Part shown: piece by piece, positions 9,566-40,802 of the stretch
How positions within the stretch are numbered: position 1 is the first letter of the stretch
How the letters are laid out: each line of letters opens with the position of its first letter
NCBI GenBank assembly: GCA_025869365.1
Contig: JAOZVV010000200.1
Location: 1 to 64,000 of the forward strand
Length of the DNA stretch: 64,000 nucleotides
Direction: 5' to 3'
Source of the DNA: Pseudonocardia sp.
Lineage (GTDB): Bacteria > Actinomycetota > Actinomycetes > Mycobacteriales > Pseudonocardiaceae
Notes under the pieces: generated by a model
Told to the model about the DNA's origin: nothing
The model's input: the letters and a program-made list of their open reading frames with translations, nothing else
The model's database searches: none
Program-made: the position numbers and the translations under genes

Positions 9566-9781
9566 GTTCGTGTCCTTCCCTCCCCGACATCGGACTCGTG
9601 GCCCGACGGGTGCCGACCGGGATGCTGCCGGCACCTGATCTTCAGACGGCCGGGGAGGCGCGTGGGTTGCGTCGGACAACGATCGCACCGCGTCGAGGTG
9701 ATCTTCGTCGAGCCCGGACGGCCGAGTTCGCCCGATCGGGACGTCCGGCCGTGGGCCGCCGGGCCTCGTTAGGGTGGCCTC

Positions 9782-10360: not shown

Positions 10361-10411
10361 CCCACTCCCCCGCGGGCCGGCTCGGCCAGCCTTGTCCTTG
10401 CTGTTTTTGTG

Positions 10412-10465
10412 GTCATCGATTGATCGACAATCCGTTGGCGTCAATGAATCGATGACATTATAATG
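10412..10465 (+). promoter_or_regulatory. Promoter with perfect TATAAT and a 10-bp inverted repeat, upstream of the SNF2 gene
   Basis: TTGGCG (10435-10440), an 18-base spacer and consensus TATAAT (10459-10464) form a good sigma70-type promoter, predicting a start near 10471. The -10 sits inside the palindrome CATTATAATG (10456-10465). GTCATCGATT (10412-10421) and its exact complement AATCGATGAC (10447-10456) flank the -35 with a 25-base spacing, a plausible operator pair. The block is strikingly AT-rich for this genome. Confidence 0.5.
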
Positions 10466-10562
10466 ATCAGCCGCTGCGGACGTGGGAACGGCACGTACCG
10501 CCGCCGTCGATCACCGGCAGTGATTTGCCTCGACGCCAGGGCGGCGGGCAGACTCGACCGTC

Positions 10563-13792: not shown

Positions 13793-13837
13793 TCCCTAGG
13801 GTCGGTCGACCGCCCCCGCATCCGGAAGGCCCACCGC

Positions 13838-14587: not shown

Positions 14588-14612
14588 CCGGATCGGCGAC
14601 CGCCGGCCGGGC

Positions 14613-16550: not shown

Positions 16551-16615
16551 GTGGGTCCCCCTCGTTCCGCGTCGCCTCCACTATGTCAGAGCAGCGGCTC
16601 CTCGCCGCGGCGCGT

Positions 16616-17785
16616 TCACGCGGTCCGGACCGCGTCCTTCGCCGCGCGCAGCGAGGCGAGGTCCGCGAACCCGCTCAGCGCGAGCGTGAGGTCCAGCTCG
16701 GCCAGCACGCTCCGCAGGACGTGCCGGACGCCGTCCTCGCCGCCGAGGGCCAGCCCGTAGGCGTACGGGCGGCCGAGCAGGACGGCGTCGGCGCCGAGCG
16801 CGAGGGCCACCGCGACGTCCGCGCCGCTGCGGATCCCCGAGTCGAAGAGCACGGCGGCCCGACCGTCGAGGGCGTGCACGACCTGCGGCAGCACCTCGAG
16901 CGCGCCGATGGCGCGGTCCACCTGGCGCCCGCCGTGGTTCGACACCACGACGCCGTCCATCCCCGCCTCGACGGCTCGGGGCGCGTCGTCGACGTGCTGG
17001 ACGCCCTTGAGCACGATCGGCCCGTCCCAGTGCTCGCGCAGCAGGTCGAGCCGGTCCCAGCGCAGCGCCGTCCCGGTGAACATCGGCACCCAGCGCCCGA
17101 CGGCGGCCATCAGGTCGTCCTCGGGCGCCTGCGCCAGCCCCGCGCGGAACGCCGGGTCGGAGAACGGGATCGCGGTCCCGACACCGCGCAGGAACGGCAG
17201 GTAGGCCTGGTCCAGGTCCGCCGGACGCCAGCCGAGGGTCCAGGTGTCCAGGGTGACCACGAGCGTCGTGTACCCGGCGGCGCGGGCCCGCCGCAGGATC
17301 GAGACCGTGACGTCGTCCTCGGTGGGCCAGTAGAGCTGGAACCAGCGCGGCCCCTCCCCCGCGGCCGCGGCGACGTCCTCGAGGGTGTGCGACGAGGCGG
17401 TCGAGAGGATCGACGCGACGCCCAGGGACGCGGCCGCGCGCGCCACCGCCGGTTCGGCCGCCTCGTGCAGGATCGACATCACCCCGACCGGCGCGAGCAG
17501 CAGCGGGGCCGCCATCGCGGTGCCGAGCACCGTCGTGGACCAGTCCCGGTCCGTCGTGTCCCGGAGCATCCGGGGGACGAGGGCGAAGCGTTCGAACGCC
17601 GCGCGGTTGGCGCGCATCGTGGCGCCGCCGCCGGCACCGCCGGCGACGTAGCCGAAGGGGCCGTCGTCGAGGACCTCGCGCGCGGCCGATTCCAGCGCGG
17701 CCGGGTCGGTCGGCAGCACGGGTGTCTCCCCGCCGAGCCCGCGCAGGTAGATCTCGGCGGCGTAGGAGGACAGCGGCGGTGTCAT
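16616..17785 (-). CDS. FMN-dependent 2-hydroxyacid oxidase, lactate 2-monooxygenase-like
   Basis: A 389-residue TIM-barrel flavoenzyme. The active-site His/Arg signature SNHGGRQVD, the phosphate-binding end LFDSGIRSGADVAVALALGA, and RPYAYGLALGG are those of the LldD/GOX family. TLDTWTLGWRPADLDQAYLPFL is a version seen in lactate 2-monooxygenases, which turn L-lactate into acetate, CO2 and water. Oxidation of lactate or mandelate to the keto acid is the alternative. It is followed 34 bases downstream by a MarR gene on the same strand. Confidence 0.85.
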   Translation of the reverse strand: MTPPLSSYAAEIYLRGLGGETPVLPTDPAALESAAREVLDDGPFGYVAGGAGGGATMRANRAAFERFALVPRMLRDTTDRDWSTTVLGTAMAAPLLLAPVGVMSILHEAAEPAVARAAASLGVASILSTASSHTLEDVAAAAGEGPRWFQLYWPTEDDVTVSILRRARAAGYTTLVVTLDTWTLGWRPADLDQAYLPFLRGVGTAIPFSDPAFRAGLAQAPEDDLMAAVGRWVPMFTGTALRWDRLDLLREHWDGPIVLKGVQHVDDAPRAVEAGMDGVVVSNHGGRQVDRAIGALEVLPQVVHALDGRAAVLFDSGIRSGADVAVALALGADAVLLGRPYAYGLALGGEDGVRHVLRSVLAELDLTLALSGFADLASLRAAKDAVRTA

Positions 17786-28945: not shown

Positions 28946-29557
28946 GTGTCCCGGGCCCTGCTGATCCTCGCGGAGCCCGAGTGGCGGGCCGCCGCCGCCG
29001 CGCACCGCGCACGGATGGGGCGCTGGACCCTCCCGCACCGGGACCGGCGCCGCCGCGGCGAGCCGCATCCCGTGCTGGACTTCCTGTTCACCTACTACTC
29101 GCTGCGGCCCGCCCGGCTCGAGCAGTGGCACCCCGGCCCGGGCGTCCGGCTCCTCGGCGACACGTCCTGGTTCGCGGAGCAGCCCGGCTACCGCCCGGAC
29201 GGGGACGGCGTCGTGCTGGATCCCTCGTCGCTGCCCGGCCGCATCCGGGACACCGCCGGTTTCGTGCACGGCCTGGTCCGGGCGACGGCGTCACGCCCCG
29301 CCCGGCTCGGCTGCTTCGGGCTGCACGAGTGGGCGATGGTCTACCGGACCGCACAGCCGCGGCACGGCGCCGTCCCGCTCCGGCTGGGCCCCGCGGGGAC
29401 GGACGAGGTCGTCGAGTCGATGTCCGTGGCGTGCACCCACCACGACGCCTTCCGCTTCTTCACCGCCGCGGCCCGCCCCCGCAACGCGCTACAACCGACC
29501 CGCGAGGACCAGGTCGCGATGGAGCAGCCGGGCTGCCTGCACGCGACCATGGACCTG
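28946..29557 (+). pseudogene. 5' part (204 codons) of a conserved actinobacterial gene split by the integrative element
   Basis: The protein from GTG 28946 has conserved blocks YRTAQPRHGAVPLRLG, CTHHDAFRFFTAAARP and EQPGCLHATMDL, after which homology ends at the element junction. The 3' part resumes at 40803 with YKWAYKLLPA. The family is annotated in some genomes as 3-methyladenine DNA glycosylase; I know of no biochemical proof. Joined, the two parts give 296 residues in one frame. As integrated, the frame runs on to a stop at 29773 across the integrase start, adding about 71 unrelated residues. The truncated protein lacks the conserved C-terminal third and is probably inactive. Its promoter reads into the integrase gene. 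Confidence 0.85.
29552..29557. other. Left attachment junction (attL core GACCTG)
   Basis: Host codons ATG GAC CTG end here; the element's own sequence (GTCGCAGGCTTAAGG) follows. The same six bases occur at the right junction. Serine integrases cross over at a 2-base centre within a short identity, which this matches. The exact crossover dinucleotide cannot be fixed. Confidence 0.75.
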
Positions 29558-29579
29558 GTCGCAGGCTTAAGGTACACAT

Positions 29580-30965
29580 GTGACCCCGGCCAAGCAAGCG
29601 CGTGCAGCTCTGTACCTCCGCATCTCGGAAGACACGGCCGGCGACGAACTCGGTGTCCGTCGTCAACGTGCCGACGCCGAGAGCCTCGCGCGGATGCGCG
29701 GGTGGGAGATCGTCGAGACGATCGAGGAGAACGACGTCTCCGCAGCGGGCAAGGCAGCCCGCCCGGGGTTTGAGCGGTTGCTACGCCTGATCGATGACGG
29801 CGCGGTTGACGCTGTCGTGGCCTGGGCACTGGACCGACTCACCCGTAACCGTCGGGACACGGTGCGACTGATCGAGGCCGCCCAGAAGCGCGGCACGGTC
29901 GTCGCGTTGGTCCGCGGGTCCGACCTGGACATGAGTACGACGTCCGGCCGCCTGGTGGCGGACCTGCTGGCCGCTACGGCGCGGGCGGAGATCGACCAGA
30001 AGGCGGAGCGGCAGGTGCGGGCGGCCCGGCAGCGGGCCGACCTGGGCAAGGCTTGGACGTCGCGACGTCCGTTCGCCTACTCCCCCGACGGCATGGCCTT
30101 GGTCGACACCGAGGCGGCCCGGCTCGCCGAGGCGTACGCCGAGTTCGTCGTGGGCAAGCCGATCGCCGAGATCGCCCGGGAGTGGAACGCCGCAGGCGTC
30201 CGCAGCTCGACGGGCGCGGAGTGGTCGCAGCCGTCGGTGCACCAACTCTTGCGGAACCCCCGGAACGCCGCGCTCCGCGCGTATCGGGGCGAGATCGTGG
30301 GCCCTGCCGCGTGGCCGCCGGTGGTGGACGAGGCGACGTACCGCGCCGCGCTGGCGCGGCTGACCAGTCCGGAGCGCCGCACGGGTGGCGGCGGGCAGGC
30401 ACGGTACCTGCTGACGGGACTGGCGCTGTGCGGACTCTGCGGGGCTACCGTCCGCAAGGGCCAGCGCCCCCGGGACGGGGTCGCGTTCTACCGGTGTGGG
30501 AAGGCGCAGCACCTCTCGAGGACGCTCGAGCACGTCGACCGGTTCGTGGTGGATGTCATCCTGGGCAGGCTCGCCCGGCCGGACGCGGCGGACCTGCTGA
30601 TCGACCACCAGGCGCCGGACACCGTCGGACTGACCCGCGAGGCCGAGGAGGTGCGCAAGCGGCTGGACACGCTCGCCGTGGAGTTCGCCGACGGCGCACT
30701 GACCGGCTCGCAGCTCCGGGCCGCTACCGAGCGCCTCCGGGCCCGCCTCACGGAGCTGGAGCAGCAGATGGCCCACGGGTCCCGCGCGCCCGTGCTCCGG
30801 GCGCTGGTGGCCGCACCGGACATCCGGGCCGAGTGGGAACGCACTCCGGTGCACCGTCAGCGCGCGGTGATCGACGCGCTCGCCGTGGTGACCCTGCTCC
30901 GCGCTGCTCGCGGCCCGCGGTTCGATCCGTCCTCGGTCGACATCGTGTGGCGCGACCAGACCTGA
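29580..30965 (+). CDS. int: Large serine recombinase (integrase)
   Basis: A 461-residue phage-type serine integrase. The catalytic N-terminal domain (1-150) has the nucleophile in YLRISED and Arg residues in AWALDRLTRNRRD and SGRLVADLLAATARAE. The recombinase domain follows (about 165-265, with RPFAYSPDG and VHQLLRNPRNAALRAYRGE). A zinc ribbon (CGLCGATV, then YRCGKAQH) comes next, and then a coiled-coil motif (about 350-410) that controls direction. GTG 29580 is 22 bases from the attL core. In the integrated state it is read from the split host gene's strand and probably its promoter; after excision it would be read from the right end. No recombination directionality factor is recognised with certainty. 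Confidence 0.93.
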   Translation: MTPAKQARAALYLRISEDTAGDELGVRRQRADAESLARMRGWEIVETIEENDVSAAGKAARPGFERLLRLIDDGAVDAVVAWALDRLTRNRRDTVRLIEAAQKRGTVVALVRGSDLDMSTTSGRLVADLLAATARAEIDQKAERQVRAARQRADLGKAWTSRRPFAYSPDGMALVDTEAARLAEAYAEFVVGKPIAEIAREWNAAGVRSSTGAEWSQPSVHQLLRNPRNAALRAYRGEIVGPAAWPPVVDEATYRAALARLTSPERRTGGGGQARYLLTGLALCGLCGATVRKGQRPRDGVAFYRCGKAQHLSRTLEHVDRFVVDVILGRLARPDAADLLIDHQAPDTVGLTREAEEVRKRLDTLAVEFADGALTGSQLRAATERLRARLTELEQQMAHGSRAPVLRALVAAPDIRAEWERTPVHRQRAVIDALAVVTLLRAARGPRFDPSSVDIVWRDQT

Positions 30966-31087
30966 GAAGCCGCTGAGACGGCCCCCTCGGGGCCGGAACG
31001 GGCAAGTGCTAAACCGTCGGTCACCGGGCATATGGTTCCTCTGCGCGGTTAGCGCATAGCAAATCTCGCCCGTGGAGGCAACCCCCG

Positions 31088-31318
31088 ATGAACGAGCGGT
31101 CCCGTCATGCCCGCGCCCGGCTCGCCCGCGCGCACCGGTTCGACCCCGACGCCGTGCCCGCGCTCGACGCGGCGTACCGCGATGAAGCCTGGCGGAGCCG
31201 CGTCGAGGAACTCGTCGACGCCGCGCCCCCGCTGTCCGACGGCACGCGCGCGCACCTGCGCAGCCTGCTCGCGCCGGTGATCGGCCGCGTCGACGACGAC
31301 GCCCAGGCGGCAGCGTGA
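31088..31318 (+). CDS. Small acidic/basic unknown protein, 76 aa
   Basis: Not recognised. It is predicted helical (RARLARAHRFDPDAVPALDAAYRDEAWRSRVEELV, read in parts), with alternating charged residues and no Cys. ATG 31088 follows GTGGAGGCAACCCCCG. The 122-base gap before it contains GCGC-GGTTA-GCGC (31039-31051) and CATAGCAAAT, a possible promoter/operator. It overlaps the next gene by four bases, so it is the first gene of the element's main operon. Confidence 0.65.
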   Translation: MNERSRHARARLARAHRFDPDAVPALDAAYRDEAWRSRVEELVDAAPPLSDGTRAHLRSLLAPVIGRVDDDAQAAA

Positions 31319-31536
31319 GCCTGAGCATCGGAGAGACCACCGCCGCGGTGCAGACCGTGGCCGCCCTGCTCGGTGGTAACCGTCGCAGCTTCGAGCGCGC
31401 GCAGCGCAGCGGGCTCCACTTCCTCGCGCTGTTCGCGATCACCGAGGCACTCCTCACCCGGTTCGATGACCCGGCCGAGGCCATCGCCTGGGCCGCGGAA
31501 GGCGTCGAGCACCGCGCCGCCGGGGAGGCCGCGTGA
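31315..31536 (+). CDS. Small unknown protein, 73 aa
   Basis: Not recognised. It starts with GTG in a GTGA overlap with the gene before. Two likely helices (TAAVQTVAALLGG, SGLHFLALFAITEALLTRF) are followed by an Ala-rich end. The second helix is hydrophobic enough to be buried or membrane-associated. It is likely cotranscribed with its neighbours. Confidence 0.6.
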   Translation: MSLSIGETTAAVQTVAALLGGNRRSFERAQRSGLHFLALFAITEALLTRFDDPAEAIAWAAEGVEHRAAGEAA

Positions 31537-31543
31537 GCGCCCG

Positions 31544-31879
31544 GTGAGCCTGCACCTGATTGCGGCTGACGCCTACGCAGCCCGGTTCACCAACGGAGCG
31601 GTGCTCCCGGTGCTCGCCGTCGCGGTCGGTCGTGACGGTGCGGCGCACGCCCTGGTGCTCGCCGCGAACGGAGCGCTGGTCCCGGCGGCCACGATGCCGG
31701 GGTTCGTCGAGGTGGCCCCGGCCGTCCGGTCGGCACCCCCGGCCGCACCGCCACGCCCACGCGCGCCGTCGCGGCCCACGCCGGAGCCCGATCCGGGGCC
31801 CCCTCCCCCCGAGGAGGACCCGTGGGAACCGAAGCGGCGGGAGGTCCGGGACCTGATGAGAGAGCGGGAGGGGATGTGA
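31544..31879 (+). CDS. Unknown protein with Pro-rich linker and EDPWE-KRREVR tail, 111 aa
   Basis: Not recognised. An N-terminal beta-rich part (VSLHLIAADAYAARF, LPVLAVAVGRDGAAHALVLA) leads to a Pro/Ala-rich linker (about 62-90). The tail EEDPWEPKRREVRDLMRERE is nearly the same as the C-terminus of the next gene's product (EDPWEEKRREVRALMAERE). GTG 31544 is 7 bases past the previous stop. The stop overlaps the next start (GTGA). Confidence 0.62.
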   Translation: MSLHLIAADAYAARFTNGAVLPVLAVAVGRDGAAHALVLAANGALVPAATMPGFVEVAPAVRSAPPAAPPRPRAPSRPTPEPDPGPPPPEEDPWEPKRREVRDLMREREGM

Positions 31880-32901
31880 CGCAGCGACGAAGATCCGGCG
31901 GGATCCCGCTCGCCGACCGGCTGGAGCACATCGAAGCGGTACGGCGGGTCGCGGTGTCGGTGCTACTGCCGTTGGATCCGCGGGCTCAACTGTCCGCGCG
32001 GGAGGTGCTCGACTTCATCTGCGCCCACATCGCCGAGCTGCCGGCCGACGCCGGCCGGATGTCGGTGCGGGTGGCGGTGGACTACATCGCCCGGGGCACC
32101 CACCTCGCGCCGAAGACGGTGCGGAAGGCGCTGGCAGCGCTCGACGAGCTACACCTGATCAGAGTGGTCCGATCGACGCCGCGGGCACAGCGCGTTGTGG
32201 ACGCGACGAAGGTCGAAGACCCGCGGAGGGCCGAGAAGCGGGCCCCGCAGGCCCGGACGGCCTCGGTTTGGACGATCTCCACCGACCTGCGGGAGCAGGC
32301 CGCCGTACTCCCGCCCGCGGAGCCGAACTTCTGGGCCACCGAGGAGGGCGCGGCGTTCCGCCGCCGGGGTGCAGCGATCACCGAGGACACTGCCGCGCGC
32401 GAGCGCGAGGCCCGGGAGCGTCGCGCGGTTCGGTCGTCGTTACGACACCAGAGGCGCCCAGAGGATGACGCCGCGGTGGACGCGGAGCTCCGGCGGCTTG
32501 CGCCGGAGCCCGGGATCTCCTACCCGATCTCCTACCCGAACTCCTGCCCGAAGTGTTACCCGAACTCCTGCCCGGTTTCCTGCCCGAACTCCTACCGGGT
32601 TTCCTACCCGCAAGCACAGCGCGACTCTCTGCGTTCGTCGGTCGTCTGCGACGACGGCCTGGCGGCCTCTGTCTCCGACTCTCCTGGGTCCAATGAACGG
32701 GTGCCACCGACATCACCCAGGCGGCACTCCACCCAGGCCAGCACTTCCGGCGCCCGGCCGGCGGAGCCGGGCGCAGCGAGCGCAACCGCGAGCGGAACAC
32801 CCGCGTTCCCCCCGGGCCCGGAGGACCCGTGGGAGGAGAAGCGACGAGAAGTCAGAGCGCTGATGGCCGAGCGCGAAGCGCGTGAGCGCGCGGAGCAGTA
32901 G
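31876..32901 (+). CDS. Winged-helix replication-initiator-like protein with NSYP repeats
   Basis: A 341-residue protein. Residues 25-100 form a winged helix (LSAREVLDFICAHIAEL, VAVDYIARGTHLAPKTVRKALAALDELHLIRVV), similar to helix-turn-helix replication or control proteins of actinophages and plasmids. Residues 160-205 are charged and helical. Residues 214-245 are eight tandem tetrapeptides of the kind NSYP/NSCP/VSYP. A low-complexity Ser/Thr/Pro/Ala linker follows, and a C-terminal tail EDPWEEKRREVRALM shared with the preceding gene. GTG 31876 overlaps the previous stop. Replication initiation is inferred from the DNA-binding fold and position after int; a transcriptional regulator is the alternative. 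Confidence 0.62.
   Translation: MTQRRRSGGIPLADRLEHIEAVRRVAVSVLLPLDPRAQLSAREVLDFICAHIAELPADAGRMSVRVAVDYIARGTHLAPKTVRKALAALDELHLIRVVRSTPRAQRVVDATKVEDPRRAEKRAPQARTASVWTISTDLREQAAVLPPAEPNFWATEEGAAFRRRGAAITEDTAAREREARERRAVRSSLRHQRRPEDDAAVDAELRRLAPEPGISYPISYPNSCPKCYPNSCPVSCPNSYRVSYPQAQRDSLRSSVVCDDGLAASVSDSPGSNERVPPTSPRRHSTQASTSGARPAEPGAASATASGTPAFPPGPEDPWEEKRREVRALMAEREARERAEQ
32515..32610 (+). repeat. Eight tandem 12-bp units inside a coding region
   Basis: Units such as ATCTCCTACCCG, AACTCCTGCCCG and GTTTCCTACCCG repeat in frame from 32515 to 32610, encoding (I/N/V)-S-(Y/C)-P. Seven or more Tyr/Cys/Pro-rich turns in a row give a stiff, Cys-containing spacer. The 12-bp units could change number by slippage without breaking the frame. 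Confidence 0.9.
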
Positions 32902-32942
32902 CCCGCACCCCCCCGAGCTGAAACGAGAGAGAGAAGACGATC

Positions 32943-33506
32943 ATGAATCGACGAGTGGTAGACGCCCCGGAGGGGCACCCGCTGATGGGCCTCTCGATCG
33001 GGAGTCTCACCCGCGAGCGCGGAATCGAGGACCGCGGCTACGTCGGCGTCGCCCCGGTCATCGTCCCCGAGGACGGTCCCGCGGACGTGGACCGGCGGCA
33101 CCGATGGGTGCGCGCCGACGAGGACCCGATGCCGCCGACGATCATCCGCCCGGACTACCACATCGGCCCGGGGTCCACGCTGATCATCGACGGCCGCACC
33201 GGCCGGGTGGTGATGGTGCGGCCGACGGTCGACGTCACGCTCGACGTCGACTTCTGGGAGCGGGCCTGTAGCGGCACGGTGGTGGGCGGTCCGACCGTGG
33301 TCACCCCGGAGTGCCAGCACGGACCCCGGAAGCTCTACGAGCACCGGCCCGCGCACGGGCCTAACGCCGGGCGGTTGCTCCGCTACATGCTGTGCTCCGC
33401 CCCGGCGGGCACGCCGAACGCCCAGCGCTGCGTTCCGCTCGACGGCCCGACGGGCCGCGAGCTGCCGGTGTCTCCCGCGACGTACGCCACCCCGGTCGCC
33501 GCCTAG
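32943..33506 (+). CDS. Unknown element protein, 187 aa
   Basis: Not recognised. It starts at ATG 32943 after GAGAGAGAAGACG. It has beta-rich central segments (VGVAPVIVPEDGP, HIGPGSTLIIDGRTGRVVMVRPTVDVTLDVDFW) and two Cys in the C-terminal half (VTPECQHGP and YMLCSAP). The order, between the replication-like gene and the tape-measure cluster, gives no clear job. A 163-base gap follows with TACTAG and TAGACT (33550-33555), a possible promoter for the rightward phage-type genes. Confidence 0.62.
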   Translation: MNRRVVDAPEGHPLMGLSIGSLTRERGIEDRGYVGVAPVIVPEDGPADVDRRHRWVRADEDPMPPTIIRPDYHIGPGSTLIIDGRTGRVVMVRPTVDVTLDVDFWERACSGTVVGGPTVVTPECQHGPRKLYEHRPAHGPNAGRLLRYMLCSAPAGTPNAQRCVPLDGPTGRELPVSPATYATPVAA

Positions 33507-33672
33507 CACACCTCGGGAATAAACGCAAGCTCGAGGTTGTTGTACTAGGTAGACTCGCAAGACCGCGCCGCCGGGCGTCTCTCCCCGGCCTGCGCCCCTC
33601 TCCCCCCGTTTCAGCCCGGCCCGCCTCCGCGCGCCCGGGCCATCCGCATGTCCGGACCCCGGAGGCCCCGTG

Positions 33673-33891
33673 ATGTCCACCCGCCCTGACCCGCTCGACG
33701 AGGTCGACCCGGACCCGGTCGACCTGCCGACCGCCGCCGCGGCGTTCGGCATCTCCCGGGCCGAACTCCGCTCGTGGATCCGTGAGGGCCTCGTGCCGGA
33801 GCCGGAGCCCGGCCTGCACGAGCTGGACCGGCTCGCCATCGCGATCTTGAGCCGCCCGGCCGCTGTGCTGCGGGGTGACTCCCGTGGCTGA
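33673..33891 (+). CDS. Small MerR/excisionase-like HTH protein, 72 aa
   Basis: Residues 18-55 read LPTAAAAFGISRAELRSWIREGLVPEPEPGLHEL, a helix-turn-helix with the LRxWIREG recognition helix and short wing typical of MerR/AlpA/Xis proteins. The N-terminus is acidic. It could be the recombination directionality factor or a regulator of the tape-measure gene it overlaps. ATG 33673 or GTG 33670 are both possible. Confidence 0.6.
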   Translation: MSTRPDPLDEVDPDPVDLPTAAAAFGISRAELRSWIREGLVPEPEPGLHELDRLAIAILSRPAAVLRGDSRG

Positions 33892-36800
33892 TCGCGTGGT
33901 GAACGTCAAGCTCAGGATGGACGCATCGGAATACGTCCGCTCCGCGGACCGGGCGGCCGAGAAGACCGAGCGCCTCGCCCGCGAGGCGGACAGGTTCTCC
34001 GGCAAGCGGTACGTGGCGTACGCCGGGGTCGACGGGGCCGAGAAGGCGCAGGCCAACCTCGAACGGATCCGCCGCGAGCTCAACTCGATCGACGGACGCA
34101 ACGTGAAGGCCCGCGTCCAGGTCCAGACACAGCCCGCGTCGCGCGACGTGGCGTTGCTGGGCAATCTGATCGCCGCCCTCGGTCCGGCCGGGATCGCCGC
34201 GGGCGCTGCCGGCTCCGCCGGACTGCTCGCGCTTGGCTCGACGCTGGGCACGGTCGCCGCCGCAGGCGGCGTGACCATGCTCGCGTTCGGCGGCATCGGC
34301 GACACGCTGGACAAGGTCAACAAGGCCCAGCTCGACCCGACCGAGGCCCACCTCAAGGCCGCGAAGCTCGCGATGCAGGAGCTGTCGGCGTCCGGCCGAC
34401 ACTTCGTGAAGTTCCTCGACGACCTCGAACCCAAGATCGACTCGCTCGAGGAGGCGGCCCAGGCGGGCCTGCTCCCCGGGGTGGAGCGCGGGCTGACGTC
34501 GCTGACGAAGATCCTGCCGGACGTCCGCGGGCTGATCGGTGAGACCGCCTCACAGCTGGGCAACCTCGCCGCCCAGGGCGGCGCGGCGCTGACGAGCCCG
34601 TTCTGGCAGGGCTACGTCAAGTTCCTGCAGACCAACATGGGCCCGACGCTGCAGTCGTTCGGACAGATCATCGGCGGCGTCGTGCACGGCCTGGCCGGCG
34701 TGCAGATCGCGTTCAACCCGCTCGCCCAGGATCTCCTCCGCGGCCTCGGGGAGCTGAGCCAGCGCTTCGCGTCCTGGGGCGAGGGTCTCTCGACCAACCG
34801 GAACTTCCAGGAGTTCGTCGACTACGTCCGCCAGACGGGCCCGCAGGTGCTTGACACGATCGGATCGATCGCGAACGCGCTGCTCAAGATCGGCCAGGCA
34901 GCGGCCCCGCTCGGTGGTCCGGTGCTCGCGATCATCGGCGGTATCGCCGATGCGCTCGCCGCCGTCGCGGCCTCCCCGGTCGGGACGCCGATCATGGCCG
35001 CCGCAGCGGCGTTCGGGGCCCTGGGGCTCGCGCTGCGCGGGATCGATGTGGCGCGGACGAGCGCCGTGGTCGGCGCGATGCGGTCGCTTCCCGGCGCCAT
35101 CGCAGCCGGGTCGCTGAACGCCGGCGTCTTCGCGGAGAAGATGGGGCTGTCCGCGGACAAGTCGGAGAAGCTCGCGAGCGCCGGGGGCAAGATCTCCGGG
35201 GCGCTCGGGAAGGTCGGCTCTGCACTGCCGATCGTCGGTATCGCCGCGATCGGACTCGGGTTCGCGTACGACGAGCTGCGCGACAAGTCCGACGATTTCG
35301 CGAAGAGCGTCATCGACGGATCGATGTCGATGCAGGACGCGATCAACGCGGAACGAAACTCGATCGAGAAGCGGAACTTCTGGATCGCCGATACCACCCC
35401 GCACCTCGACGACGAGGCCGAGGCTCGTCAGAATCTCCTCGACAAGCTCCGCGCGAACATCGATTCGATGCAGGGCGAGGAAAAGGCCCGCGGCCGGGCG
35501 ATTCTCGCCCAGGCGGACTACAACCAGAAGGTCATCGATTTCGGCGAGCACTCGCCGGAAGCCATCGCCGCACAGCGGGACCTCACCGCCGCTACGGCCG
35601 CCGAGACCGACGAGCGGCGCAGGGCCGCGGTTGCCACCCGCGACCAGGCCACCGCGCTGCGGGAGTTGCAGGGCTGGCAGATGTCCGCGGCAGAGTCCGA
35701 CATCGGCTACCGGCAGGCGCTGCTCAACCGCAAGCAGGCCCAGGAGGACGCCACCAAAGCGACCCGCGAGCACGGCAAGGGCTCGGACGAGGCCCAGCAG
35801 GCGAACATCCGGCTCGAGCAGGCCGACCTGGCGGTCGTCGCGGCGGCCGACCGGCTGTCCGAGGCGAACCTCGCCGGGGCGAGCGCCACGGACAAGGCGG
35901 AGCTGAGCTCGTTCAACCACACGAACACCGTGTTGGGCCTGGCCTCGGGGATCAACGGCCAGGCATCCCCGGCGTTGATCGACATGGCGTCGAAGATGAC
36001 GAACTCCGAACTCGCCGCGCACAACGCGAAGATCGAGACCGACGGCCTCGACTTCACGGTCCGGAAGCTCCCGGACGGGCGCACGATCAAGATCGCCACC
36101 GACTCCGCGGTGCGCGAGGCGGAGAACGCGGTCACGTTGAAGAAGCGGATCGAGGAGCTGCCGCTGTACCGCGACATGGTGGTGCGCGCCAAGGGCGAAT
36201 GGAGCCTGGGGACGTACCAGCTCGGTGACGGGACCACCGGCGGCGGAGCACGCAACTCCGCCGGCGGCACGTTCCAGAGCCCCGGGCGCCAGTACGCGAC
36301 CGGCGGATACATCACCGGCCCCGGCACGGCCACGTCGGATTCGATCCTCGCCAGGCTGAGCCGCGGTGAGTACGTCGTCCGGGCCGCCGCGGTGAACCGG
36401 GTCGGAGTGGCCACGCTGGACCGGCTCAACCGGACCGGGATGGTGCCGGGGCTGCCGGCGTTCGCCGACGGCGGCGTCGTCGGATCCGCCCAGTACCCGG
36501 CGATGATCGACAGCGTCGAGACCGGGATGTACGCCAAGATCGCGGCACGCGTCGCCGAGCAGATGTCATCGTTCGGCGCCGGTGCCTACGGCGGCGGCGG
36601 CAGCATCGGCGGTGCCGGGGTCCAGCGCTGGGCACCGCTCGTGTTGCAGGCGCTCGCGATGCTGGGCCAGCCCGCGAGCTACCTCGGAATCACGCTGCGC
36701 CGGATGAACCAGGAGTCCGGCGGCAATCCCAACATCGTCAACAACTGGGATATCAACGCCAAGCGCGGGACGCCTTCCGGCGGCCTGATGCAGACCATCG

Positions 36801-37231
36801 CCCCGACCTACCGGGCGTACGCGGACCCGCGTCGGAACCTGGGGATGTTCGACCCGCTGTCCAACATCCTGGCATCGATGCGGTACGCGCTCGCGCGCTA
36901 CGGCTCATTGCCCGCCGCGTACAACAAGCCCGGCGGATATGCGAATGGCGGAATCGTCCCGGGGACCCTTCCCGGGGATCGGTACCTGGTCGCCGCCCAG
37001 GCCGGCGAGCGCGTGCTCACCAAGGCGCAGACGCGGTCGTACGACCGGATGGTGGACGTGCTCGACCGCCCGCGGCCGGTGCCCTACGTCCAGCCCACGC
37101 CCGGCTCTGCCGGTGCTGCCGCCCCCGCCGGACCCAAGGTCCAGTTCGGCGACGTCCACGTCGCACAGCCCGTCGACATCGACCTTCTGTCCGACCGCAT
37201 GGAGTTCGCCATCGCGGCGACCAGCTTCTAG
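33875..37231 (+). CDS. Phage tail tape-measure protein with transglycosylase domain
   Basis: A 1,118-residue protein typical of siphophage tape-measure proteins. It has an N-terminal coiled coil (20-80), hydrophobic segments near 85-150 and 350-395 (LLALGSTLGTVAAAGG), long helical charged repeats (480-720) and a Gly-rich middle. The LT/SLT-type muramidase domain is near 915-1015, with Glu947 in MNQESGGNPNIVNNW and GLMQTIAPTYRAYADP. The C-terminus is short and beta-like. In tails it sets the length and opens the wall during DNA entry. No other tail gene is present. GTG 33875 is the longest start; GTG 33884, 8 bases after GGGG, is equally likely. The upstream HTH gene overlaps it. Confidence 0.85.
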   Translation: MTPVADRVVNVKLRMDASEYVRSADRAAEKTERLAREADRFSGKRYVAYAGVDGAEKAQANLERIRRELNSIDGRNVKARVQVQTQPASRDVALLGNLIAALGPAGIAAGAAGSAGLLALGSTLGTVAAAGGVTMLAFGGIGDTLDKVNKAQLDPTEAHLKAAKLAMQELSASGRHFVKFLDDLEPKIDSLEEAAQAGLLPGVERGLTSLTKILPDVRGLIGETASQLGNLAAQGGAALTSPFWQGYVKFLQTNMGPTLQSFGQIIGGVVHGLAGVQIAFNPLAQDLLRGLGELSQRFASWGEGLSTNRNFQEFVDYVRQTGPQVLDTIGSIANALLKIGQAAAPLGGPVLAIIGGIADALAAVAASPVGTPIMAAAAAFGALGLALRGIDVARTSAVVGAMRSLPGAIAAGSLNAGVFAEKMGLSADKSEKLASAGGKISGALGKVGSALPIVGIAAIGLGFAYDELRDKSDDFAKSVIDGSMSMQDAINAERNSIEKRNFWIADTTPHLDDEAEARQNLLDKLRANIDSMQGEEKARGRAILAQADYNQKVIDFGEHSPEAIAAQRDLTAATAAETDERRRAAVATRDQATALRELQGWQMSAAESDIGYRQALLNRKQAQEDATKATREHGKGSDEAQQANIRLEQADLAVVAAADRLSEANLAGASATDKAELSSFNHTNTVLGLASGINGQASPALIDMASKMTNSELAAHNAKIETDGLDFTVRKLPDGRTIKIATDSAVREAENAVTLKKRIEELPLYRDMVVRAKGEWSLGTYQLGDGTTGGGARNSAGGTFQSPGRQYATGGYITGPGTATSDSILARLSRGEYVVRAAAVNRVGVATLDRLNRTGMVPGLPAFADGGVVGSAQYPAMIDSVETGMYAKIAARVAEQMSSFGAGAYGGGGSIGGAGVQRWAPLVLQALAMLGQPASYLGITLRRMNQESGGNPNIVNNWDINAKRGTPSGGLMQTIAPTYRAYADPRRNLGMFDPLSNILASMRYALARYGSLPAAYNKPGGYANGGIVPGTLPGDRYLVAAQAGERVLTKAQTRSYDRMVDVLDRPRPVPYVQPTPGSAGAAAPAGPKVQFGDVHVAQPVDIDLLSDRMEFAIAATSF

Positions 37232-37239
37232 GAGACCCC

Positions 37240-37455
37240 GTGACCGCACGACTGACCTTGCAGGAACTCCACGACGCGGGCCTGCCGGACATCCGGCGCC
37301 GGATCGGCATCTGGCGCAACGAAGGCATGTTGACGTCCGACACCGCCGACCGGTTCCCGCTCGATCGCGTGCTGGCGCTCGTCGAGCACCACACCGAGAG
37401 CGCCGCGCGCCCCGAGCCTGAGCGGCGCGAGCGGCCCACCCGACGCGCCGCCTGA
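37240..37455 (+). CDS. Small HTH-like protein, 71 aa
   Basis: Not firmly recognised. LTLQELHDAGLPDIRRRIGIWRNEGML resembles a MerR/Xis-type helix-turn-helix with GIWRNEG in the recognition position, followed by a Glu/Arg-rich tail. It starts 9 bases after the tape-measure stop. The two HTH proteins on either side of the tape-measure gene may be related. Confidence 0.5.
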   Translation: MTARLTLQELHDAGLPDIRRRIGIWRNEGMLTSDTADRFPLDRVLALVEHHTESAARPEPERRERPTRRAA

Positions 37456-37562
37456 ACCTGCACCGCCCGTCCCGTCTGGTCGTCGAGCGGCGGTGCACCA
37501 ACGCTGGGCCGGGGCTGGTCACGACCTCTCACGTCGACCACCCCGGCCCGGCCCCTGAACAC

Positions 37563-37583
37563 CCGGCAGCGCAACGCTGCCGG
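37563..37583 (+). promoter_or_regulatory. Perfect hairpin before the 218-aa gene
   Basis: CCGGCAGCG-CAA-CGCTGCCGG is a 9-bp perfect stem with a 3-base loop, 23 bases before ATG 37606 in a 150-base non-coding gap. It may end the tape-measure transcript or regulate the next one. Confidence 0.4.
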
Positions 37584-37605
37584 CCACTGAGAGGACACAC
37601 ACGCA

Positions 37606-38262
37606 ATGCGATACATCGCACCCGGACGCAGCAACGCTGCCCTGGACCGCCTCGTGGCCAACACCCGGCCGGCGGACAACCTCCTGCCCGGCGACGTGGT
37701 CAAGCTGATCGCCGAGGGCACGAAGCTCCGCGTCAAGGCCGCCGAGGCCGCCGCACTGGCCCGCGACCTGGGTACCCCCGCGGCCGAGAAGGCCGCGCAG
37801 GCGGCCGATGACGCCGCCGCAGCGAAGGCGGCCCGCGAGGGCAAGCCGCTGCCGAAGCCGACAGCGGTCCCGAAGCTGCACCAGGACCGCGAGGACGCGG
37901 CCCGCACCGTCACCGCGCTGGAGACCGCGCTCACCGCGGTCCGTTACGAGCTGGACGAGGCGGCCCGTGCCGCCGCCCCGGACCGTGACGTCGAGCTGCG
38001 CACCCGCGCAGCCGCCCGCGCCCAGATCGAGAAGGCTGCCGCCGCGCTGGCCGACATGGTGCAGGCCGAGGTGGACCGGCAGGGCCTGGGCGGCTGGCTC
38101 AACGGTGCCGCGCTCGACCGCGGCGCGGTGCAGACCTACTGGCTCGACGTCATCCCGGAGCTGGGCTCCCGCGCCATCGGACGCGACACCCACTCCGGCG
38201 TCGGCATCCGCGACGTCATCACCCGCGCGGCCGTGACCGCGCTCGACCCCGAAGAGGTTTGA
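37606..38262 (+). CDS. Unknown helical protein, 218 aa
   Basis: Not recognised. It is almost entirely helical and Ala-rich with a long coiled coil at about 40-150 (AEAAALARDLGTPAAEKAAQAADDAAAAKAA, then LETALTAVRYELDEAARAA). Length and composition would suit a phage scaffold, tail chaperone or structural helper, but there is no diagnostic motif. ATG 37606 follows GAGAGGA at 12 bases. It is followed within 3 bases by a small gene. Confidence 0.6.
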   Translation: MRYIAPGRSNAALDRLVANTRPADNLLPGDVVKLIAEGTKLRVKAAEAAALARDLGTPAAEKAAQAADDAAAAKAAREGKPLPKPTAVPKLHQDREDAARTVTALETALTAVRYELDEAARAAAPDRDVELRTRAAARAQIEKAAAALADMVQAEVDRQGLGGWLNGAALDRGAVQTYWLDVIPELGSRAIGRDTHSGVGIRDVITRAAVTALDPEEV

Positions 38263-38264
38263 TC

Positions 38265-38456
38265 ATGAGCAACGACGATGGCACCCTGGACCCGACCGCG
38301 AGCATGAGCGCGGTGCGCCGCTCGATCATGATCAAGAGTCAGCGCGGCGGGGCGTACAAGCCCCGCGTGGACGTCAACGGCTACGTGCTCCCCTGGGCGG
38401 AGCAGTCCGAGGAGTACCGCAAGGCCCACCCCCAGCCCAAGCCGATCGATGGCTGA
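38265..38456 (+). CDS. Small unknown protein, 63 aa
   Basis: Not recognised. It starts at ATG 38265 with GAGG 8 bases before. The basic middle SIMIKSQRGGAYKPRVDVNGYV leads to a C-terminal Pro-rich LPWAEQSEEYRKAHPQPKP. No Cys. It overlaps the next gene by 8 bases. Confidence 0.55.
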   Translation: MSNDDGTLDPTASMSAVRRSIMIKSQRGGAYKPRVDVNGYVLPWAEQSEEYRKAHPQPKPIDG

Positions 38457-38649
38457 CGTCCCGCACGGCGTCGTGTCCGTGCTCCCCGTGATCAACAGCC
38501 CCGGCTACCGCACCGGACGTCCGCAGTACGCCGCGGAGTGTGCGTGTGGCGTGGTCCGCGTCGAGCTGTTCGAGGGCGGCGCAGCCGGCGCGCTGCGCGA
38601 CCACATCGCCGAGGCCACCGGATCGGCGGGTGTGGGTCATGGCGACTGA
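38449..38649 (+). CDS. Small CxC protein, 66 aa, paralogue of the next gene
   Basis: Not recognised. VSVLPVINSPGYRTGRPQYAAECACGVVRVELFEGGAA contains ECACG, a possible half zinc site. The same pattern, VVPVISSR then RCRCGYREV, occurs in the following gene. The two overlap by 11 bases and look like an ancient tandem duplication. Function is unknown. Confidence 0.55.
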   Translation: MADVPHGVVSVLPVINSPGYRTGRPQYAAECACGVVRVELFEGGAAGALRDHIAEATGSAGVGHGD

Positions 38650-38881
38650 GACCCCGGAGCCGGAACACCGCGTCTGGGTAGTCCCGGTGATCAGCTCCCG
38701 GATCGTCGGGCAGTCGTTCGTGTACGGCGGTAGCTACTCGCAGAGCCAGGTGCGCTGCCGCTGCGGGTACCGCGAGGTCGTCGTTGCCCAGCTCGCCGAC
38801 ACCTACGGCCGGGCGCACTACCGGCACCACGGCGTCAAGCCGCAGCCCATGCCGTACGGCTACAACGGCGGCGGCGACTAG
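38639..38881 (+). CDS. Small CxC protein, 80 aa
   Basis: Not recognised. VWVVPVISSRIVGQSF, VRCRCGYREVVVAQL and a C-terminal His-rich RAHYRHHGVKP are the visible segments. The Cys-x-Cys-Gly plus the His cluster could bind zinc. It is paralogous to the gene before. A hairpin 17-50 bases after the stop closes this group. Confidence 0.55.
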   Translation: MATETPEPEHRVWVVPVISSRIVGQSFVYGGSYSQSQVRCRCGYREVVVAQLADTYGRAHYRHHGVKPQPMPYGYNGGGD

Positions 38882-38897
38882 CGCCCACCGCACCGAC

Positions 38898-38931
38898 GCC
38901 CCGTCTCCCGTCCTCCAGCGGGAGGCGGGGC
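38898..38931 (+). terminator. 13-bp stem after the CxC genes
   Basis: GCCCCGTCTCCCG (38898-38910) pairs with CGGGAGGCGGGGC (38919-38931) with one T-G wobble and an 8-base loop. It is followed by CTGTT. It likely ends the upstream operon. Confidence 0.55.
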
Positions 38932-38969
38932 TGTTCGGTACCACACCCCTACCTCTCACAGGAGTAACC

Positions 38970-39152
38970 ATGATCGGCAACGTCAACGACCCGACCACCG
39001 CAACCACGATCACCCTGCTCGACGGCAGCGCCCACACTCCCGACGTCGGCAGCATCCGCCTCGTCTCGGTCGCCAGTATCAACGGACTGGCGTGGACCGA
39101 GGAGGGGTCCGCGATCGTGGCCCCGTTGCACGCAGTGCTGACGCTCTCGTGA
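38970..39152 (+). CDS. Small unknown protein, 60 aa
   Basis: Not recognised. A strong AGGAG lies 5 bases before ATG 38970. Sequence elements ITLLDGSAHTPDVGSIRLVSVASINGLAW suggest a small beta-barrel. The stop overlaps the next start (GTGA). Confidence 0.58.
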   Translation: MIGNVNDPTTATTITLLDGSAHTPDVGSIRLVSVASINGLAWTEEGSAIVAPLHAVLTLS

Positions 39153-39334
39153 TCACCACTACGTACGACCCCGAGGCTGTGTACCGCGAGGCATCCGAGG
39201 CATGGGCAGCACACGCGGACCGTGCCGCCCGTGAGGGATGGCGCCCGATGACGTTCTGCGTCTGGCACGGACGATGGTCCGCCTCGCTCGACGCGCTCGC
39301 GTCCGCCGTCGACACCGTGATGCACACCCGCTGA
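39149..39334 (+). CDS. Small unknown protein, 61 aa
   Basis: Not recognised. It starts with GTG in a GTGA overlap. It is helical (DPEAVYREASEAWAAHADRAAREGW) with WHGRW in the middle. Likely produced together with the gene before. Confidence 0.52.
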   Translation: MITTTYDPEAVYREASEAWAAHADRAAREGWRPMTFCVWHGRWSASLDALASAVDTVMHTR

Positions 39335-39484
39335 CGTCACCGTCCGTGAGGGTGGGGCGTGATCATCATGCCCTACCCCCGGGGGGTACCCCGCCGGCGA
39401 CCATGATCATGAACCGACGGGGAGCGCTCCGAGAAGTCGCACGCATGACAACGCTCGTTTTACATAGGACCCCCGGAGGGGATC
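39335..39484. other. Non-coding gap before terS with palindromes; possible packaging site
   Basis: The 150-base gap contains TACCCCC-G-GGGGGTA (39374-39388), the palindrome ATGATCAT at 39403-39410 with a related TGATCATCATG at 39360-39370, and CCCCCGGAGGGG just before the terS start. Packaging sites often lie beside terS, so this is where a cos or pac site would be expected. Nothing here identifies one directly. Confidence 0.3.
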
Positions 39485-39880
39485 ATGACGGATTGTGACC
39501 GGGATCCGCCGGCAGGGTTGGGCCCGCGCGGCTCTGCGCTGTGGTCGGACCTGACCGCGGAGTTCGAGCTTGACCTGGACGTCGCCCAGATCGCCATCGA
39601 GCTGTGCCGCGCTGTCGACGTCGCCGAGGCGCTGGCCTCGGTGCTCGCCGAGCAGGGGTACACGACGGGCGGCAGCCGCGGGCAGACCCGCGTGCACCCC
39701 GCGGTGGCCGAGCTGCGGGCGACTGGCCTGCTGATCGCCCGGCTCACGAAGGAGCTCGACCTGCCCGAGGACGAGCCGGTCGACAAGGCGACGTCGATGC
39801 GCACCGACGCGGCCCGCAAGGCCGCTAACGCGCGTTGGGACATGGATCGGATGCGTAGTCGTGGCCGCGCGGCGGCGTAG
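39485..39880 (+). CDS. terS: P27-type phage terminase small subunit
   Basis: A 131-residue protein with the pattern of P27-family small terminase subunits: GLGPRGSALWSDLTAEFELD near the N-terminus, then a helical segment (IAIELCRAVDVAEALASVLAEQG). GSRGQTRVHPAVAELRATGLLIARLTKELDLP, read in parts, is the family-typical RVHPAVAELR block. TerS recognises the packaging site and recruits the large subunit, whose gene is absent here. A stand-alone TerS is what PICI-type satellites use to redirect helper packaging. The next gene overlaps its end by 20 bases. Confidence 0.78.
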   Translation: MTDCDRDPPAGLGPRGSALWSDLTAEFELDLDVAQIAIELCRAVDVAEALASVLAEQGYTTGGSRGQTRVHPAVAELRATGLLIARLTKELDLPEDEPVDKATSMRTDAARKAANARWDMDRMRSRGRAAA

Positions 39881-40187
39881 GCGCCGCGAGCGGCCCGACG
39901 AGCATCAGCCGGCGGGGAACCGGCGTCACGACCACCTGATGCCCGACGAGCTGCGGGAGTTCGATCCGCGGGCCTGGGGCGCTACGGCGGAGGACGCGGT
40001 GGGACCCCCGGCGCGTCCGTGCTCGGACGCGTTCTACGCAGCACAGGGCCGTTGGTGGACGGCTCGCGCCGAGTGGTTGCTCACCCGCGGCCTCCCGATG
40101 GCCGCCCGTGAACGTCTCGCCCTGCCACCCGCCCGTCAGGAGGTCGCACGTGCCACTGCCCGCCGACGAGGACCCGACGCCGCCTGA
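39861..40187 (+). CDS. Basic unknown protein, 108 aa
   Basis: Not recognised. It starts with GTG 39861 inside the end of terS. The N-terminus is a run of Arg (VAARRRRRRERP); a middle helix ARAEWLLTRGLP follows. It resembles the small basic proteins that often follow terS in phages. Low complexity makes the assignment weak. Confidence 0.45.
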   Translation: MAARRRRRRERPDEHQPAGNRRHDHLMPDELREFDPRAWGATAEDAVGPPARPCSDAFYAAQGRWWTARAEWLLTRGLPMAARERLALPPARQEVARATARRRGPDAA

Positions 40188-40341
40188 GCGTCCACGCACG
40201 AAGCGGTGCGGCTGGTGCAAGTCGTCCGGTCTGCACCTGAACGGCCGGGGTGAGCTGGAGAGTCATCGAGTCCCCGGCCGCACCCTGCGGTGCCGTGGGT
40301 ATGAGACCTTCCTCGCCGAGGACACCCGCGAGCAGTACTAG
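40150..40341 (+). CDS. Small CxxC protein, 63 aa
   Basis: Not recognised. AGGAGG at 6 bases before GTG 40150 fixes the start. CGWCKSSGLHLNGRG and TLRCRGY give a possible three-Cys/His metal site, as in small phage HNH-associated or zinc-ribbon proteins. No HNH catalytic residues are seen. It is the last gene of the rightward operon before a strong terminator. Confidence 0.6.
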   Translation: MPLPADEDPTPPERPRTKRCGWCKSSGLHLNGRGELESHRVPGRTLRCRGYETFLAEDTREQY

Positions 40342-40375
40342 CCTCTGAGATCGCTTTTCCCGAACACGACACAAA

Positions 40376-40404
40376 GCAGCCCCCACCTTTCCGGTGGGGG
40401 CTGC
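40376..40404. terminator. Bidirectional terminator, perfect 12-bp stem
   Basis: GCAGCCCCCACC (40376-40387), loop TTTCC, GGTGGGGGCTGC (40393-40404). It lies between the convergent last genes of the element. Few T residues follow, but stem strength and position are convincing. Confidence 0.8.
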
Positions 40405-40422
40405 CGTCGTTCCTGGGCTCGA

Positions 40423-40701
40423 TCAGCCCCGGGAACCAGCTATCCTGACCAGCGCGACGAGCAACGCGGCGTGCGCGTCGTCGAAGTCGGGCCCGGGGAC
40501 GAGCGTCAGCCCGCCGTCCTCGGTGATCGTGACCGTGACCAGGTCGGCCGTGGTGAGTTCCTGGTCGTGGCGCGTCAGGTGTAGCGCGTGGTCCGGGTCC
40601 ATGACCAGCGCCCCGCACCGCGAGCACGACGACACGGTGTCCGGGTCGCGGGCGGGCTCGGATGTGAAGATCCGCCCGCGGCGGGTGAATGATGGAGTCA
40701 T
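40423..40701 (-). CDS. Zinc-ribbon-like small protein, only leftward gene of the element, 92 aa
   Basis: Not recognised. GGAGGAG 7 bases before ATG 40701 supports the start; a longer start at 40722 lacks this. CSRCGALVMDPDHALHLTRHDQEL has Cys-x2-Cys and His-x3-His spacing of a C2H2-like finger. A C-terminal helix DDAHAALLVALVRIAG follows. Reading opposite to the rest, at the right end, it could be a repressor-like or immunity gene, but no evidence beyond position. Confidence 0.65.
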   Translation of the reverse strand: MTPSFTRRGRIFTSEPARDPDTVSSCSRCGALVMDPDHALHLTRHDQELTTADLVTVTITEDGGLTLVPGPDFDDAHAALLVALVRIAGSRG

Positions 40702-40796
40702 GGCCGGTCTCCTCCGGGTCAAGGCCCCGGGGCCGGTGTTCGCTGCACCGCCCGGGGCCGTCTACAGGATGTATGCGCCCGGAGCACTTGTGGAGT

Positions 40797-40802
40797 GACC
40801 TG
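40797..40802. other. Right attachment junction (attR core GACCTG)
   Basis: Element sequence GTGGAGT ends with GACCTG, and the host codon TAC follows at 40803 in the frame that continues the gene cut at 29557. With attL this predicts an attB reading ATGGACCTGTACAAG and an attP reading GGAGTGACCTGGTCGCAGG. Confidence 0.75.

Follow-up and report, generated by a model that had tools for sequence, protein, structure and literature searches.

A putative phage satellite of Pseudonocardia encoding a tape measure protein and a small terminase subunit

The 64,000 nucleotides analysed here (the window) are positions 1 to 64,000 of contig JAOZVV010000200.1 in a Pseudonocardia sp. draft genome (GenBank assembly GCA_025869365.1; 5.27 Mb in 200 contigs, completeness 90.2 %). 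At 29,552–40,802 the window includes a discrete mobile element in which genes for a large serine integrase, a replication-initiator-like protein, a full-length tail tape measure protein (TMP) and a small terminase subunit (TerS) were recognised. We judge, with a probability of roughly two in three, that this element is a phage satellite that packages itself using its own TerS and has its own TMP put into tails built by a helper phage. Consistent with a phage satellite, the element has an integrase and a defined attachment site, its packaging and morphogenesis genes comprise only those for TerS and TMP, and intact units of the same kind recur at different sites in two other members of the genus (loci L168 and L170, described below).

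Boundaries and gene content of the element

The element is bounded by a GACCTG core at each end, at 29552–29557 (attL) and 40797–40802 (attR), giving a period of 11,245 bp, and the two ends given in a first-pass annotation of the window correspond to the outer edges of these cores. Both cores lie within one host gene, with the 5′ part starting at 28946 and the 3′ part continuing to 41081, and joining the flanks at one core restores a single uninterrupted frame of 296 codons. When the joined 500-bp sequence was used as query, a match spanning the intact junction was found in 51 of the 61 other genomes available for the genus (for example, positions 1–500 at 89 % in G281), and the match was absent, short or one-sided in the remaining 10. 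Only matches crossing the junction are included in this count, as the raw tally of 58 of 62 includes the element's own genome, which gives two pieces that each end at a core, and short chance matches. The insertion is therefore exact. Among the 51 genomes matching the uninterrupted site, no relative was found in which this gene holds a full capsid or tail module.

The TMP gene (33875–37231, + strand) is a frame of 1,118 codons from the first GTG at 33875, though the start is probably at 33884, which fits the homologue in P. acidicola (L168) and gives an intact protein of about 1,115 aa. The product matches many PHROG tape-measure families (best 8.6e-47) and includes an SLT transglycosylase domain (1.7e-4), in agreement with the full-length TMP proposed in the first-pass annotation. 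A chance ORF was rejected on the basis of this homology and of a shuffle control, the longest stop-free run in the element being 1,126 codons versus a maximum of 606 in 200 single-base shuffles of the element. A comparison of 21 TMPs covered seven from satellites or islands, that of the element included, 11 from prophages and three from phages. The TMP of the element aligns end to end with that of L168 (45 % identity, 700 bits), whereas scores against the 14 phage or prophage TMPs did not exceed the 224 bits obtained with prophage L193; that against the island L182 was 223 bits. The last 200 residues are 56 % identical to those of the TMP in L170, the rest of which is mostly only weakly similar, and TMP parts thus appear, from these alignments, to recombine among satellites. 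TMP lengths in the genus span 857–1,540 aa. Tail length scales with TMP size at about 0.15 nm per residue, and if this TMP sets length by that rule the tail would be roughly 165 nm. As a separate observation, an 82-aa membrane-like protein encoded near the end of L168 (14028–14276, − strand) includes a motif, TLADGSAGGGARNSAGG, that is a C-terminal copy of a TMP motif, the counterpart in the TMP of the element being QLGDGTTGGGARNSAGG.

The TerS gene (39485–39880, + strand), also noted in the first pass, is of the phrog_1496 type (2.2e-15); the match to Pfam Terminase_4 (0.0024) is below the family cut-off. The 150-bp non-coding gap immediately upstream (39335–39484) includes short palindromes and is a candidate cos/pac region, though placing the packaging site there is a guess. 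At the other end of the element, the integrase gene (29580–30965, + strand) encodes a 461-aa large serine recombinase (Resolvase, 8.5e-27; Recombinase, 1.8e-9; phrog_95, 2.3e-90); an integrase had been noted in the first pass.

The replication-like winged helix-turn-helix (wHTH) protein of the first-pass annotation was retained with a reservation. The gene (31876–32901, + strand; 341 aa, scanned as 31822–32901) yielded weak phrog_678, phrog_391 and phrog_2030 matches, with transcription-regulator and replication-initiator-O profiles alone represented (E 0.004–0.03), and a 51-aa stretch of the product is similar (E 5e-4) to the L168 homologue, a protein with its own match to phrog_678 (1e-4). 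No relative was found when genome contigs were scanned with the protein. A 12-bp iteron-like tandem array, a candidate origin, lies inside the gene at 32517–32610, and arrays are also found inside the corresponding genes of L168 (5466–5528) and L001 (5805–5874), with a weaker one in L003. These arrays may represent an origin inside the initiator gene, as is the case for lambda O. The weak matches, the array and the position of the gene are therefore consistent with a role in replication, but a confident family assignment was not obtained.

The integrase, the wHTH protein and the TMP are the only products of ORFs >250 aa in the element, which leaves no room for an ordinary large terminase subunit (TerL), portal or capsid gene. 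Accordingly, TerL, portal and capsid queries from three phages found no match in the element by BLAST, and PHROG and Pfam scans and the phage queries revealed no large terminase, portal, capsid or other tail genes, as the first-pass annotation had stated. Apart from TerS, none of the small ORFs matched a structural family, barring a marginal match of a terminase-small profile (E 0.095) to a 73-aa helix-turn-helix (HTH) protein described below. Gene calls in the element and its relatives were made with a simple script and are uncurated reading guides.

Related islands in the genus and the wider family

The TerS was used to search 62 genomes of the genus, and 19 places in 18 genomes, including its own, were found. 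Matches to residues 1–872 of the TMP were present in 13 of the 62. TMP and TerS were found together in four genomes besides that of the element (L168, L169, L170 and L175), and PHROGs confirmed both proteins in all four. Two of these loci are complete islands. L168, in P. acidicola (G251), has 51-bp direct repeats at its ends and a period of 11,446 bp (11.4 kb), and encodes a tyrosine integrase (phrog_1, 1.3e-44), a rep-like protein (phrog_678, 1e-4), a TMP of 1,101 aa and TerS. L170 (G254) has 17-bp end repeats and a period of 12,738 bp (12.7 kb), and encodes a tyrosine integrase, a 402-aa protein in the rep position, a TMP of 1,540 aa and TerS. The order integrase, rep, TMP, small ORFs, TerS is common to the element, L168 and L170, and in L168 and L170, too, only the integrase, rep and TMP genes between the end repeats exceed 250 aa. 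Both have a tyrosine integrase instead of the serine integrase of the element, and the gene in which L170 is inserted, which is 78 % identical to that interrupted by L168 (methyltransferase-like by eye), differs from the insertion gene of the element. Other islands with the same gene order, which the first-pass annotation had proposed to look for, therefore exist. The remaining two loci are less similar; L169 (G253) lies near the start of a contig and encodes a TMP of 1,208 aa and TerS, and L175 (G270), which shares only TMP and TerS with the element, encodes a TMP of 857 aa, a head-maturation-protease/VG15-like protein, a stopper match and TerS.

Several small genes, all on the + strand, are also conserved in these islands. 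Homologues of the 187-, 218-, 63- and 83-aa proteins of the element are found in L168, and of the 63-, 66- and 83-aa proteins in L170. The 187-aa protein (32943–33506) shares 45 % identity over 58 aa with its L168 homologue, and the 218-aa, mostly helical protein (37606–38262) is 39 % identical to its counterpart there. Single-sequence AlphaFold models of these two proteins were poor (mean pLDDT 37.6 and 46.4, respectively) and gave no useful fold, that of the 218-aa protein being an all-helical model of low confidence, and searches of 249 genomes of the bacterial family, a sample to which P. acidicola does not belong, found the own copy and one marginal match for each. The 63-aa protein (38265–38456) is 51 % identical to its homologue in L168 and 38 % in L170, and was not matched in a scan of viral contigs. 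The 66-aa CxCG protein (38449–38649) shares 45 % identity over 49 aa with L170 8786–9004, and the 83-aa CxCG protein (38630–38881) is 52 and 56 % identical to those of L168 and L170, respectively. Two to three tandem small CxCG paralogues (38449–38881 in the element, 8402–9004 in L170) lie between TMP and TerS as a conserved block. A 73-aa product (31315–31536) shares 39 % identity over 72 aa with L168 4457–4747. The 73-aa MerR/Xis-like HTH protein encoded just upstream of TMP (33670–33891) has weak matches, including one to a small ORF adjoining TMP in L170 (E 0.003), and with PADLOC gave a mad1 match alone (1.7e-5, 29 residues).

The other ORFs of the element, on the + strand unless stated, are a codon-scored 76-aa ORF (31088–31318) with a weak match (E 0.004) to a 50-aa ORF of L060; a 111-aa ORF (31544–31879) with a C-terminus that resembles, by eye, that of the wHTH protein; a 71-aa ORF (37240–37455), HTH-like by eye and with no family match; codon-scored ORFs of 60 aa (38970–39152), 61 aa (39149–39334) and 63 aa (40150–40341), the latter two scored weakly; and, near attR on the − strand, a 92-aa ORF (40423–40701), Zn-ribbon-like by eye and weakly similar (E 1e-4) to an ORF at the end of L170.

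To place TerS-bearing loci more broadly, 16 of the 18 non-own places in the genus (G287 and G260 were left out) were fetched and searched by BLAST (E up to 1e-4; some contigs were short). No TerL or portal match was found within 11 kb in any of the 16. TMP was matched in four and a capsid protein like that of L060 in three (L176, L179 and L180), the capsid match in L178 being uncounted as it is a self-match of a query taken from that locus. L060 encodes a serine integrase, an HK97-type capsid protein (phrog_10, 3.6e-32) and TerS. The family-wide TerS sample of 249 genomes included 23 places, the element's among them, and 20 non-own places were fetched (G150 and G238 were left out), three of them shared with the genus set. 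Two were near strong TerL and portal matches (L056 and L064) and two near a partial TerL without a portal (L070 and L071), and in the other 16 neither TerL nor portal was matched nearby, with the caveats that L068 and L073 are on short contigs and that the weakest TerS matches may be false. The same BLAST searches, of limited sensitivity, find both genes in L024, L056 and L064.

L060, L176, L179 and L180, and by eye L066 and L067, are small islands with a capsid protein and TerS in which TerL, portal and TMP were unmatched, and capsid-type satellites are apparently common in this bacterial family. The integrase of the element is 38 % identical to that of L060 and 36 % identical to that of L179, and L066 and L067 adjoin a gene with a start that resembles, by eye, that of the insertion gene of L168 and L170. 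On these similarities, integrases and sites seem to have been exchanged between capsid-type and TMP-type satellites. Proteins of about 250–280 aa, similar by eye at their N-termini, are found next to TerS or TMP in seven islands (L055 10872–11645, L057 11433–12203, L062 10720–11493, L063 8010–8804, L065 8329–9177, L175 15111–15941 and L182 8436–9227). The two tested, from L175 and L182, had no family match, and these proteins are possibly a scaffold-like or capsid-size factor.

Islands that carry TMP were also sought through the TMP itself. Eight of the 20 TMP-centred loci were mapped gene by gene, and seven of the eight, like L183 and L193–L195, are in prophage-like tail modules (all by eye). 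In L028 (G003:C1, ~9304–17100), HTH genes and a gene for a 343-aa ATPase-like product accompany a 900-aa TMP, with no recognised head or tail genes, and the locus may be a further TMP island of this family of bacteria. An island in Nocardioides caldifontis (L182, 3900–14300) includes an integrase, a DnaB/primase-like gene and a 917-aa TMP, with no TerS among the called proteins; because its TMP is closest to that of prophage L193 (405 bits), the comparison suggests a separate capture. Scans of viral contigs were less informative. With the TMP alone, the best 80 of 152 loci were nearly all matched in the SLT part, and L106, which has a long match on a small contig, resembles a fragment of an ordinary tail module (four loci were mapped). 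With a TMP alignment a single weak locus, L185, was found. PF10145 (PhageMin_Tail) misses the TMP of the element in its own genome, and a search with that model is thus uninformative on other TMPs.

Proposed life cycle and alternative explanations

If the element is a satellite of the kind proposed, infection by, or induction of, a helper siphophage would lead to its excision as a circle by the serine integrase, and the wHTH protein together with the iteron-like repeats in its own gene would start replication. TerS would then direct the TerL of the helper onto satellite DNA, with the helper providing capsid, portal, tail tube, chaperone, baseplate and lysis. The satellite TMP, with its cell-wall-cutting SLT domain, would replace that of the helper, yielding hybrid-tailed particles in which the satellite sets tail length and entry properties; the element would in this way alter the tail of its helper, as the first-pass annotation suggested. 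We infer the incorporation of the TMP from the precedent of the Vibrio satellites considered below and from the full-length TMPs conserved across several islands.

A number of observations weigh against this reading. TMP was not matched in 12 of the 16 same-genus TerS loci, so a TMP is not a general feature of satellites with TerS. None of the small ORFs was recognised as encoding a tail assembly chaperone, though profile searches can miss chaperones, and since chaperones diverge fast this counts only weakly. A helper prophage, the search for which the first-pass annotation had recommended, was not found: in the element's own genome neither the portal model PF04860 nor the TerL model PF03354 had a match. 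The assembly, however, is ~90 % complete, and some phages escape these models. Portal and TerL were also matched in only four and one, respectively, of the 20 TMP-centred 20 kb loci, partly because windows of this size may not reach those genes. The replication assignment is weak, and the rep-position protein of L170 has no PHROG match and its gene no tandem array of note.

An unlikely alternative is that the TMP of the satellite is a weapon of interference, titrating the chaperone of the helper or mis-sizing its tails, with the satellite DNA travelling in particles that contain the helper TMP. Satellites often block helper assembly, and no chaperone was recognised here. The Rta protein of PLE11, one of the Vibrio satellites known as phage-inducible chromosomal island-like elements (PLEs), is also reported to target the TMP of its helper (PMC12987554). 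However, the TMP is full length, has an SLT domain and shares a conserved C-terminus with other members, which seems to exceed the needs of a decoy, and the PLE precedent is for TMP incorporation (PMC12987554).

Far less probable is that the element is what remains of an ordinary prophage after deletion, with TerS and TMP kept by chance. Homologues of both proteins do occur in complete prophages, but the ORFs of the element are intact, as the first-pass annotation had emphasised, and neither deletion or frame damage nor, among the 51 genomes with the uninterrupted site, fuller relatives at the same place were found. Furthermore, TMP precedes TerS in the element, and on the circle the integrase and rep genes separate TerS from TMP. 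In three annotated phages TerS is instead ahead of the head genes and TMP, and hence a single deletion would presumably not yield the order seen in the element. The prophage remnant was rejected because relatives with the same order and small genes, but different integrases and insertion genes, lie at other attachment sites (L168 and L170), which bears out the earlier preference for a satellite. We give equally little credence to the element being an integrative plasmid or another mobile element unrelated to phages, with TMP and TerS carried as cargo that has no virion-related use. An integrase, a rep gene and iterons are enough for an integrative plasmid, but TMP and TerS are together in five loci of the genus, including that of the element, and ~11 kb elements with TerS, capsid and TMP have been deposited as phages. 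That the large protein is a cell-wall lytic enzyme, as its SLT domain match would allow, and not a tape measure is the least probable of all, since tape-measure homology spans much of the N-terminal 750 residues plus the SLT part, SLT-region matches are common in annotated phage TMPs, and an SLT lysin alone was therefore rejected.

Beyond the self-packaging satellite that we prefer for this element, we lean, with slightly less assurance, towards an actinobacterial satellite lineage with a virion module of TerS and TMP and no capsid gene. Its members would use the capsid and tail of a helper, with the length of the tail and the entry of DNA determined by the satellite, and their TMPs would have evolved with the satellites (857–1,540 aa, with N- and C-terminal parts swapped) while integrases and sites were exchanged with capsid-carrying satellites.

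Comparison with known systems

The phage records closest in organisation were found by tblastn of TerS against 50,697 phage records (E up to 0.01), which matched 29, 12 of them from Mycolicibacterium. Three M. aichiense phage records, JSForest2, Alyssa1 and WillG (OR387116, OR387110 and OR387121), are 10.9–11.1 kb long and annotate a terminase of TerS size, adaptor, stopper, serine integrase, HTH protein, major capsid protein and TMP; neither TerL nor portal is annotated in them. They resemble the element in size, in the serine integrase, HTH protein, TMP and TerS (30–36 % identical), and in the circular order rep, (capsid), TMP, TerS, and the HTH gene of JSForest2 holds a 24-bp tandem array, that of WillG shorter ones. 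They differ in having a major capsid protein, an adaptor and a stopper, with a scaffold annotated in JSForest2. Their TMP (651 aa) is only marginally similar to that of the element (E 0.002 at best). That these records are satellites is our reading, as their titles do not say so, and a text search found no paper on M. aichiense phage satellites.

The first-pass annotation regarded a satellite-encoded TMP as undescribed, which does not hold, as one is present in these ~11 kb records and has been published for the Vibrio PLEs. The PLEs were reported in 2026 (Nature; PMC12987554) as the first satellites that build chimeric tails with their own TMP. According to that report, tmp and the tail chaperone gene tac are present in all PLEs; PLE11 encodes a TMP, a chaperone and a baseplate hub, and its virions carry the PLE TMP with that of the helper ICP1 excluded; deletion of tmp cuts transfer by 96 % for PLE1 and 99 % for PLE4; and putative tmp genes are found in some capsid-forming phage-inducible chromosomal islands (cf-PICIs). 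The element is like PLE1, PLE4 and PLE11 in encoding a TMP, and the PLEs depend on helper tail parts. They also have a tail chaperone (and PLE11 the hub) and a helper with a contractile tail. For its part, the element has its own TerS and an actinobacterial host, and neither a hub nor, within the reach of profile searches, a chaperone was recognised among its small ORFs.

The Streptomyces satellites MulchRoom and MiniFlayer, like the cf-PICIs, encode capsid, portal and both terminase subunits (PMC10690885), a set of which the element has TerS alone. Like the element as proposed here, these are described as phage-dependent, with the cf-PICIs and MulchRoom taking helper tails. Own capsid, portal and terminase genes, as in cf-PICIs, were not found beyond TerS.

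Phage-inducible chromosomal islands (PICIs) typically have an integrase, a replication initiator with a nearby origin, TerS and a divergent stl/alpA-type regulatory region. The element shares with those of the SaPI (Staphylococcus aureus pathogenicity island) type an integrase, the own TerS that some of them have and the lack of lysis genes, and its candidate initiator gives weak matches but has a tandem array in its gene. It differs in its TMP and large serine integrase, and in having no recognised capsid-remodelling gene and no divergent regulatory region, all called genes being on the + strand except one near attR.

An account of a TMP-bearing, capsid-free actinobacterial satellite was not recognised in the literature searched, most preprints and subscription journals lying outside it. 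The presence of TMP genes of widely differing lengths in a capsid-free group of actinobacterial satellites unrelated to the PLEs suggests that satellites gained control over tail assembly on more than one occasion. These elements also form a natural set in which host entry and the tail length of the helper could be related to the satellite TMP. Capsid piracy could likewise be compared with tail piracy by using the capsid-carrying satellites of the family together with the Mycolicibacterium elements that have both genes. Hence, the idea of a satellite-encoded TMP is already established for the Vibrio PLEs, and the capsid-free actinobacterial form represents a new variation on it.

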